Shown: in pieces, positions 16,759-54,262 of the stretch
Layout: each line of letters opens with the position of its first letter
Position numbering within the stretch: position 1 is the stretch's first letter
From: Desulfovibrio sp. ZJ209
Lineage (GTDB): Bacteria; Desulfobacterota; Desulfovibrionia; Desulfovibrionales; Desulfovibrionaceae
Reading direction: 5' to 3'
DNA length: 64,000 nucleotides
Assembly (NCBI RefSeq): GCF_011039135.1
Contig: NZ_JAAKEJ010000006.1
Span: 62,001 to 126,000 of the forward strand
Position numbers and translations under genes: made by a program
The notes under the pieces: model-generated
What the model was told of the DNA's origin: nothing
The model's input: only the letters and a program-made list of their open reading frames with translations
The model's database searches: none

Positions 16759-16803
16759 GGCGTTGTGTACTTCCGAGTTTGTGGTGCGCTTGTGCTGCAT
16801 CTG

Positions 16804-17109
16804 TAATGCCGAAATTATCCGTCAAAAACAGCCTTGCTTCAGCCGTTGCGACGAAGGAAGCTACGGATGAAGACAGCAGTTAGTTACCGCGCTGGTCAGA
16901 CAACGATGCCGCTGTCGCTATCCGTAAGGCTCGCAGACTTGCCAACGGCTAGCGCTTTGGTGCTTGCTGCGTCAGAAAAAAATTTCCTCGGTCGAGTACT
17001 TAAGTACACTCCCTTCGGAAATTCTTTTTCTTCCTTGCAAGCACCAAAAAATCTTATTTTTTAGGATTCTTCCGGCAACAGCACCCGTCTTCCGCTACGC
17101 TCCAGACGG
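16804..17109 (+). repeat. Interspersed palindromic repeat, copy A (core with 120-bp module at the proximal site)
   Basis: The core runs from TGCCGAAATTATCC (16807-16820) to GGATTCTTCCGGCA (17064-17077), which are imperfect inverted repeats of each other. Inside are the covarying stem GGTGCTTGC (16959-16967)/GCAAGCACC (17037-17045) and the central palindrome AGTACTTAAGTAC. A 120-bp hairpin module sits at 16836-16955, right after CAGCCTT. A tail hairpin bounded by CCGTCT and AGACGG ends at 17109. The copy fills the gap between iorA and iorB. Without the module the core is 151 bp. Confidence 0.9.
16836..16955 (+). repeat. 120-bp hairpin module inside copy A
   Basis: The module is bounded by GCTTCAGCCGTTG and CAACGGCTAGCGC. 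Nested arms pair: AGCCGTTG with CAACGGCT, TACGGAT with ATCCGTA, and GACAGC with GCTGTC. Length is exactly 120 bp, as in the three other complete modules of the window (42005-42124, 42189-42308, 54054-54173). No target-site duplication is visible. Confidence 0.85.
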
Positions 17110-17159
17110 ATTTAAGGAATATCCCTCAACTGCGTCCTGCTAAAATTGAATTTCCCCGA

Positions 17160-19159: not shown

Positions 19160-19420
19160 TAATGCCGAAATTATCCGTCAAAAACAGCCTTTTAGGTTCC
19201 GGCTACGTCAGAGAAAAATTTCCTCGGTCGAGTACTTAAGTACACTCCCTTCGGAAATTTTTATCTTCCTTGCCGGAACCTAAAAATCTTATTTTTTAGG
19301 ATTCTTCCGGCACCATCGCCGCTGTCGATGCCCGTAGGGCTCGCTTTGCTCGCCAACGGGCACGGCGCTTCGCGCCGCCACCCGGTCGCAGCACCCCGTC
19401 TTCCGCTTCGCTCCAGACGG
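19160..19420 (+). repeat. Interspersed palindromic repeat, copy B (module-free core, extra hairpin in the tail)
   Basis: The simplest copy: a core of exactly 150 bp (19163-19312) that is one long imperfect palindrome around AGTACTTAAGTAC. The variable stem is TTAGGTTCCGGC (19192-19203) with its perfect complement GCCGGAACCTAA (19272-19283), different in sequence from the other copies. Neither internal site holds a module. Instead a 75-bp insert at 19315-19389, after GGCACC in the tail, resembles the 3' half of the module. The closing CCGTCT/AGACGG tail ends at 19420. It lies between iorA and the YfgM-like gene. Confidence 0.9.
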
Positions 19421-19484
19421 GAGGTGGAAGCGCGCACAACTCAATACTACAAGCCGGCTCGCAAACGAGATGGCCAGACGCCCC

Positions 19485-41885: not shown

Positions 41886-42004
41886 TGTATTGCAGCGGCC
41901 AGCCCTTCCTTTATCCCGTCTGGAGCGAAGCGAAAGACGGGTGCTGGTGCCGGAAGAATCCTAAAAAATAAGATTTTTTGGTGCTTGCAAGGAAGAAAAA
42001 AATT

Positions 42005-42124
42005 GCGCTAGCCGTTGGCGAGTCCACGAGCCTTACGGATAGCGACAGTGGTAGCGTTGGCTGTCCTGCGCGGTAACTAACTGCTGTCTTCATCCGTAGC
42101 TTCCTGCGTCGCAACGGCTGAAGC
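42005..42124 (-). repeat. 120-bp hairpin module at the central site of copy C
   Basis: Identical at 119 of 120 positions to the module at 54054-54173 by direct comparison (one G/A change in the loop). It is inserted right after CTTCGGA in element orientation, exactly where the module of copy D lies. Confidence 0.88.
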
Positions 42125-42188
42125 TCCGAAGGGAGTGTACTTAAGTACTCGACCGAGGAAATTTTTTTCTGACGCAGCAAGCACCAAA

Positions 42189-42308
42189 GCGGTAGCCGTC
42201 GCCCGGCTTGCCGGGCATACGGATACCGACAGCGGCTCCGTTGACTGGCTGACACACTAACTAACTGCTGTCTCCATCCGTAGCTTCCTTCGTCGCAACG
42301 GCTGGAGC
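42189..42308 (-). repeat. 120-bp hairpin module at the proximal site of copy C
   Basis: A divergent module at the same position as in copy A. Nested stems are kept (AGCCGT/ACGGCT, TACGGAT/ATCCGTA, GACAGC/GCTGTC), while the terminal loop and a side hairpin (GCCCGGCAAGCCGGGC) differ strongly from the other modules. Confidence 0.82.
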
Positions 42309-42398
42309 AAGGCCGTTTTTGACGGATAATTTCGGCGATACACAGACAGTACAAGCACACCACCAATTCGCAAGCCGAACAAAATCTTTCCTTCCCTC

Positions 42399-53855: not shown

Positions 53856-53956
53856 GGGCAGGGGCGCCGTGCGGAAGCGGCGGGGGCTCCCCTGAGCACC
53901 TGCGTGCCCTTGGCTTTGGCGTGCTTGTGCGTTGGCGGTGTTGCGGTGGGGCTTGG

Positions 53957-54262
53957 ATAATGCCGAAATTATCCGTCAAAAACAGCCTTTTTGCTGCTGG
54001 CTGCGTCAGAAAAAAATTTCCTCGGTCGAGTACTTAAGTACACTCCCTTCGGAGCTTCAGCCGTTGCGACGCAGGAAGCTACGGATGAAGACAGCAGTTA
54101 GTTACCGCGCAGGACAGCCAACGCTGCCACTGTCGCTATCCGTAAGGCTCGTGGACTCGCCAACGGCTAGCGCAATTTTTGTCTTCCTTGCCAGCAGCAA
54201 AAAATCTTATTTTTTAGGATTCTTCCGGCACCAGCACCCGTCTTCCGCTTCGCTCCAGACGG
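53957..54262 (+). repeat. Interspersed palindromic repeat, copy D (core with 120-bp module at the central site)
   Basis: The core of 270 bp (53961-54230) equals 150 plus one 120-bp module (54054-54173). The variable stem is TTGCTGCTGGC (53991-54001) with GCCAGCAGCAA (54190-54200), unlike the other copies yet perfectly self-complementary. The terminal inverted repeats and the tail hairpin ending at 54262 match copies A-C. It fills the gap between the convergent AraC and O-antigen ligase genes. Confidence 0.9.
54054..54173 (+). repeat. 120-bp hairpin module inside copy D
   Basis: Inserted between CTTCGGA and AATTTTT, which are contiguous in copies A and B; no duplicated target bases. Nearly identical (119/120) to 42005-42124. 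Confidence 0.88.

Follow-up and report, generated by a model that had tools for sequence, protein, structure and literature searches.

The palindromic repeats scattered through a 64,000-nucleotide stretch of the Desulfovibrio sp. ZJ209 genome (the window) are probably copies of a transposon moved by an IS1595-family transposase, whose centre is a hairpin that is older than the transposon and spread across its order, and whose stems are exchanged between copies by recombination. The probability of this account as a whole is put at roughly 0.6. That the repeat is a non-autonomous transposon (MITE) in this genome can be held with considerable confidence. The element, here called E1, would be about 280 bp long, or longer where other elements have nested in it, and would reside in this genome and its close relatives.

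A preliminary description of the window had reported four copies (A to D), and all the features that it named are present in the sequence (Table 1): the TGCCGAAATTATCC/GGATTCTTCCGGCA pair, the centre AGTACTTAAGTAC, the CCGTCT/AGACGG tail hairpin, and three versions of an inner stem. The copies do share the inverted repeats that it took for their termini, but TGCCG/CGGCA are not the ends, as conservation extends outwards to GGCTTTGTTATAC and GTATAACATAACC. Apart from the true ends, the description missed 8-bp target duplications and a nested element of 120 bp (E2). Inserts of E2 account for the length differences among copies A, C, and D; copy B has a core without E2, and its tail carries a distinct insert of about 80 bp.

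Table 1. Positions of the repeat features within the window.
Feature	Position	Strand	Remarks
Copy A, full element	16759..17150 (ends approximate)	+	left terminal repeat degraded, GGCGTTGTGTAC at 16759
Copy A, hairpin core with one E2	16807..17077	+	
Copy A, E2 (nested 120-bp palindrome)	16836..16955	+	site S1, after AACAGCCTT
Copy A, inner stem, left arm	16956..16967	+	TTTGGTGCTTGC
Copy A, inner stem, right arm	17037..17048	+	GCAAGCACCAAA
Copy A, tail hairpin CCGTCT...AGACGG	17084..17110	+	
Copy B, hairpin core, no E2, 150 bp	19163..19312	+	
Copy B, inner stem, left arm	19192..19203	+	TTAGGTTCCGGC
Copy B, inner stem, right arm	19272..19283	+	GCCGGAACCTAA
Copy B, palindromic insert of ~80 bp in the gap between core and tail hairpin	19315..19394 (limits approximate)	+	
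Copy B, tail hairpin	19395..19422	+	
Copy C, hairpin core with two E2	41948..42337	-	
Copy C, E2 at site S1	42189..42308	-	
Copy C, E2 at site S3 (CTTCGGA/AATTTTT)	42005..42124	-	
Copy C, inner stem, left arm	42177..42188	-	
Copy C, inner stem, right arm	41977..41988	-	
Copy C, tail hairpin	41914..41941	-	
Copy D, left terminal repeat, degraded	53912..53924	+	GGCTTTGGCGTGC
Copy D, hairpin core with one E2	53961..54230	+	
Copy D, E2 at site S3	54054..54173	+	
Copy D, inner stem, left arm	53990..54001	+	TTTGCTGCTGGC
Copy D, inner stem, right arm	54190..54201	+	GCCAGCAGCAAA

Four copies are too few for the family. The 20-nt centre is matched, with at most three mismatches, at 57 places in the 2.70-Mb genome, against none for a reversed control pattern. 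A covariance model search of the genome gave 59 matches, and BLAST with copy B gave at least 83 matching pieces (40 of 75 candidates scored). Exact matches to the centre occur in 96 stretches of species genomes, and those among the 80 listed are nearly all from Desulfovibrio MAGs. Three centre matches lie in MAGs labelled Verrucomicrobiota or Lachnospiraceae (L099, L146 (CASFDK), and L121 (JAAVHZ)), which are likely to represent misbinned Desulfovibrio contigs. Contigs of related MAGs often start or stop within a copy (for example, L081, L101, L103, L104, L124, L139, and L150), and the repeat therefore breaks assemblies.

The anatomy of the repeat is described from 133 complete copies in six genomes, 40 core hits without both core ends being omitted. 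Without inserts, the core measures 149–151 bp in 126 of the 133 copies, and copy lengths of 150, 270, 390, and 510 correspond to the core plus n x 120. It consists of an outer stem, an internal loop in which TGCGTCA lies opposite TTCCTTG, a second stem, and an apex, CGGTCGAGTAC...GTACACTCCC. Conservation continues for about 49 bp to the left of the core and about 73 bp to its right, including the tail hairpin. The better-preserved copies are thus about 280 bp long with the ends GGCTTTGTTATAC/GTATAACATAACC, and the periphery of the element has decayed further than the core. As the preliminary description held, the copies examined do not code for protein: none of the 54 placed copies in this genome is intragenic. 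In one relative, successive hairpins follow each other head-to-tail every 152 bp (L300, G026:C1:14300-15300; hits at 334, 486, 638, 790, and 942).

Evidence of transposition comes from the copies that retain both ends. These are recognisable, with at most four substitutions, in 24 of the 133 complete copies; the remaining 109 lack a recognisable end on one or both sides and are not scorable for duplications. Among the 24, 8-bp target duplications are perfect in four and within one mismatch in nine, while flank shuffling gave a mean of 0.16 perfect duplications; tests for 7-bp and 9-bp duplications in the same copies found none. The duplications are A/T-rich (for example, TTTAATGA, AAATTAAA, AATAAGAA, and TTCTTTGA). 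The comparison of orthologous loci that had been proposed with the preliminary description yielded 30 occupied/empty cases between genomes, some with rearranged flanks, covering 27 occupied copies (copy 85 being doubtful); the window is the empty side in six of them.

The terminal repeat also leads to a candidate transposase. With at most one mismatch, it occurs at 13 places in the genome, 12 of them at copies of the element. The thirteenth (C3:326814-326826) ends 92 bp before an open reading frame (C3:326919-327914) of 332 aa, which matches DDE_Tnp_IS1595 (E 6.8e-14). Because a gene for an IS1595 transposase lies so close to a matching terminal repeat, the element here is most likely an IS1595-type MITE. 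In the end near the transposase, 17 of the 24 leading positions, with the block AGTTG among them, agree with the element consensus. In G033, a transposase 38% identical to this one lies between inverted repeats of the form GGCT... (13/18), with an 8/8 duplication. Duplications of 8 bp are usual beside IS1595 members (PMC8101967), one member prefers A/T-rich sites (PMC12561309), and E1 has the 8-bp duplication and the ends starting with GG that these sources describe. An IS1595-family transposase is a probable mobiliser of the element; it would recognise ends of the GGCTTTGTTATAC type and move the element by cut-and-paste, producing the 8-bp A/T-rich target duplications. This account is limited to the present clade, as elsewhere the hairpin has unrelated outer sequence.

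E1 resembles the described IS1595/IS1016-group MITEs in being short, in its GG-starting inverted repeats and 8-bp A/T-rich duplications, and in its presence/absence polymorphism (PMC8101967, PMC12561309). Its genome also holds a family transposase with a matching terminal repeat on one side. Unlike them, it encloses a structured hairpin that is conserved and much older than the MITE itself; the stems of this hairpin are freely exchanged, and a second palindrome has dedicated sites for nesting in it. A further difference concerns the autonomous partner: no second (right) end was found beyond the transposase gene in the stretch scanned, and this genome yielded one end only and no complete autonomous element. 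The present genome (G000) also has, on contig 1 at L331 1288-1999, another insertion sequence of the IS1595 family, whose 18-bp ends (GGGGCTGTCCTAGCTAAG) are perfect and whose duplication is AAATTATT (8/8). Mobilisation by ISL3 was rejected, PF01610 being absent from G000, G007, and G004. Carriage of copy A by a plasmid or phage was also rejected, neither collection yielding a match at the sensitivity applied; the E1 hairpin is present on one viral contig.

The preliminary description stated that the inner stem always pairs perfectly. This holds for the four stems of the window, but not for the wider set of 126 copies from six genomes (seven of the 133, in which E2 was not recognised by the removal rule, were omitted). 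In that set, 88 stems are perfect, 29 have one mismatch, and nine have at least two; three of these nine are artefacts of slicing caused by a 1-bp indel, and one contains N's. Uncompensated changes, which had been named as evidence against the idea of compensation, thus do occur genome-wide, but as a minority. The arms have 36 left-hand versions and a mean mismatch of 0.58, compared with 3.03 when arms are randomly re-paired. Across 121 distinct cores, the cells that depart from the commonest base make up 22.9% of the inner stem, 4.6% of stem B, 2.6% of the internal loop, 2.4% of the apex, and 1.4% of the outer part. More than one Watson-Crick type is found at pair 60/92 and at nine inner pairs (columns 32-36 and 38-40 with 112-114 and 116-120, and, more weakly, 29/123).

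Covariation was measured in 17 hairpins from eight genomes, in an alignment folded from the same sequences, which favours structure. Within it, 91.6% of paired cells pair, compared with 76.9% after shuffling, and the covariation score is 0.367 against 0.119; none of 500 shuffles was as high in either measure. Changes on both sides affect 67 cells, as opposed to 22.5 in shuffles, and 15 of the 26 pairs have changed on both sides. Sliding the partner columns by 1-3 leaves pairing at 53.2% or less. The gain of further pair types was an unexceptional measure for these 17 hairpins (93 of 500 shuffles). The claim that the stems covary is therefore borne out, and strongly so, with the loop motifs kept and the fold constrained.

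A covariance model built from the 17 hairpins detected the hairpin in 25 of 61 genomes of the same genus and, with at most 20 candidates scored per genome, in at least 64 of 199 genomes and at least 17 of 43 genera of the order. In other genomes, the outer stems of different copies have no sequence in common (for example, at L068, L072, L079, L084, and L226); the hairpin core therefore predates the IS1595-type MITE in which it sits in this clade. The finding that pairing is kept while the letters change stands across the order. Since the loops are invariant and the stems free, the fold is likely to be under selection, and the folded single strand is somewhat favoured as the thing selected. The centre of the MITE would then be an older hairpin of the order, with loops preserved by sequence and stems by pairing only, which would allow a long-term, compensated drift of the stems. 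A bolder reading, which is tentative, takes the core to be a distinct order-wide class in the Desulfovibrionales, which mobile elements of different kinds have carried and which serves as a landing platform for hairpins (E2 and a single 42-nt E2 unit) that spare the fold. Under that reading, the combination of invariant internal and apical loops with covarying stems implies that a host or element factor would recognise the core as folded single-stranded DNA or RNA. Were a protein to recognise the fold, its binding site would be given by the fixed loops. In other genomes, at L079 and L287, the hairpin is bracketed by other terminal-repeat-like sequences, GGGTCTGTCCCTAAATTG and GGGGCTGTCTCTAAAT, as if it had been acquired by other mobile elements.

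Covariation and conserved loops would also be expected if the hairpin acted as RNA, co-transcribed with its neighbours and selected as a folded transcript, such as a terminator, an mRNA stabiliser, or an RNase target. This explanation appears rather unlikely. In its favour, the strand opposite to the orientation used folds better with RNA parameters (mean -47.3 vs -39.7 kcal/mol; 35 of 43 non-redundant hairpins), as it does with DNA parameters (-25.0 vs -22.3; 36 of 43), and tandem genes in this genome read that strand 27 times against 11 (p 0.014; 54 of 56 copies placed). Elsewhere, however, the gene orientation is reversed (13 vs 4; 31 copies, of which 20 were placed using codon statistics learned from this window). 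Gene calling had been trained on two genes judged real by eye. As the bias is opposite in this genome and in the others, orientation was not used to choose a strand. Nor are G·U pairs enriched: the pair cells of the 121 cores comprise 5967 Watson-Crick, 11 G·U, 25 A·C, and 38 other cells. The 43 non-redundant hairpins have 43 G·U, 58 A·C (p 0.16), and 183 other mismatches, close to the expectation for random mismatches, and the counts are 65 G·U and 97 A·C (p 0.015) when related copies are included. RNA is consequently not favoured over DNA. A known RNA family was rejected: at the gathering score, Rfam recovered only a tRNA from the window, and a relaxed search with copy A and four loci gave chance-level matches (best E 0.099). 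The evidence on RNA and DNA is divided, and the repeat is assigned neither to a strand nor to RNA.

The origin of the different stems was approached through 22 orthologous pairs of copies, 20 of which were scored; among the other genomes, a flank-based search for orthologues gave mainly neighbouring copies at a single locus or identical pieces. Four of the 20 pairs have identical arms. Two, both involving L025, had been mis-sliced by an indel and resemble whole-stem swaps when the alignment is read by eye. In eight, three or more positions are compensated, and each such case is a swap between known stem versions; the compensated differences come as blocks of 3-4 positions among the same few versions. 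Six pairs differ by a single stem substitution, uncompensated in all six, and stepwise compensation was not seen among the orthologous pairs of this clade. Since both arms are replaced jointly in orthologues, the replacement presumably involves recombination with another copy, and such recombination explains the pattern of the window better than repeated compensatory mutation does. The preliminary description had deduced selection on the fold from whole-stem changes between the window copies; with orthologues showing block swaps, those changes alone do not support that deduction. The six uncompensated substitutions further imply that short-term purifying pressure on pairing is not strong.

Pairing could also be kept by mutation itself, if template switching or cruciform repair copied one arm onto the other, so that any version of the stem became a perfect palindrome. 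Changes from one Watson-Crick pair to another, with few G·U intermediates, would fit such a process, and the 29 copies with a single mismatch resemble its intermediates. Arm-to-arm copying should, however, erase the mismatched 7-nt internal loop and the asymmetric outer part, and these are nearly invariant where the inner stem varies freely. Nor has it corrected any of the six single substitutions in orthologues, and one stem mismatch is common to two orthologues (L020/L144). This explanation is therefore considered unlikely, and selection, rather than arm-to-arm repair, would be the keeper of pairing.

In the preferred account, which combines selection on the fold over long periods with recombination within a genome, copies would trade whole stems, both arms at once, and this trade would be the reason why the four window copies bear different perfect stems. 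With dozens of copies per genome, orthologous pairs, and loops as an internal control, the family offers a natural test of palindrome pairing in bacterial genomes, in which block swaps and single mismatches can both be followed. It separates stems compensated through selection from stems compensated through recombination between copies, which are usually read as one.

In the nested element E2, which is 120 bp long, a variable spacer separates the hairpin unit GCTTYAGCCGTTGCGACGMAGGAAGCTACGGATRAAGACAGC from a related unit in inverted orientation. The copy set holds 57 E2 inserts in 44 copies, at four sites only: S1 (26), S2 (22), S3 (6), and inside E2 itself (3). Target bases are duplicated at none of the 57. 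These sites are at the borders of stems, where an extra hairpin would leave the fold intact, and E2 may be found there because the hairpin tolerates it. Three orthologous pairs with cores at least 0.98 alike differ by exactly one E2, a difference that recombination between copies could produce as well as insertion. Seven more elements in this genome have lost the stretch that separates two of the sites. Among 61 related genomes belonging to the same genus, 21 contain E2 or its first unit, as do 10 viral contigs. Yet another palindromic insert, the third, measures about 80 bp and in part resembles the right half of E2; it occupies the gap between core and tail hairpin in copy B of the window (19315-19394) and at L029, L035, L058, L199, and L201.

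The same properties of E2 (two inverted hairpin units, a variable spacer, and no target duplication), together with the long hairpin of E1, its many interspersed, extragenic copies, and compensatory stem changes like those reported for REPINs (PMC3116915), would suit a REP/REPIN-type repeat moved by an IS200-like tyrosine transposase (RAYT), but this is very unlikely and, for E1 in this genome, already contradicted: the Y1 transposase (PF01797) is absent from this genome, G007, G004, and G034, neither the hairpin nor the E2 motif was found at any of 10 Y1 loci of relatives, and E1 has terminal repeats, 8-bp target duplications, and a branched core with a 7-nt internal loop.

Two other known systems bear a partial likeness to these repeats. 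CGTC-tagged REPs (Di Nocera et al. 2013, PMC3733652) resemble the hairpin in having an unpaired CGTC (here TGCGTCA) beside the stem, in being without a known dedicated transposase, and in having units that also occur within genes. GCGTCA is present in the internal loop of most of the aligned hairpins, with the CGTC tag at the foot of the stem. The tagged REPs are described as having stems of 8-9 bp, loops of 4-5 nt, a CCA tail, and head-head dimers (PMC3733652); in contrast, the stems here are longer, the apex is structured and about 30 nt long, an outer stem encloses the whole, and the 3' motif is TTCCTTG. Desulfovibrio is not mentioned in the main text of that paper, and no account of such repeats in Desulfovibrio was identified among the titles listed from the open-licence PMC literature.

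The second likeness is one of habit. Rickettsia palindromic elements (RPE) are palindromes that insert in-frame within genes (PMC10969869), and among 15 loci tested, E2 lies in-frame in protein genes at four. It occupies the same place, in different frames, in the gene for a Mu-like I protein at L204 (1023-1142) in this genome and on the viral contig L264; it stands at the start of a GemA-like gene at L202 (~990-1110, minus), and within a long open frame with an LPD3 domain at L221. Other E2 loci are weaker as in-frame cases, as their antisense frames are often open too. Unlike the RPE, E2 is a 120-bp element found in genes of Mu-like prophages and in another repeat, and it belongs to a different phylum. 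A palindrome that nests in both hairpins and phage genes thus has a habit comparable to that of the Rickettsia elements (PMC10969869). The viral contigs L259 (6-174) and L263 (7177-7297 and beyond) carry tandem copies of the first hairpin unit of E2, one every 48 bp, which encode 16-residue repeats, such as AVATQEATDGDSRDAL, in one open frame.
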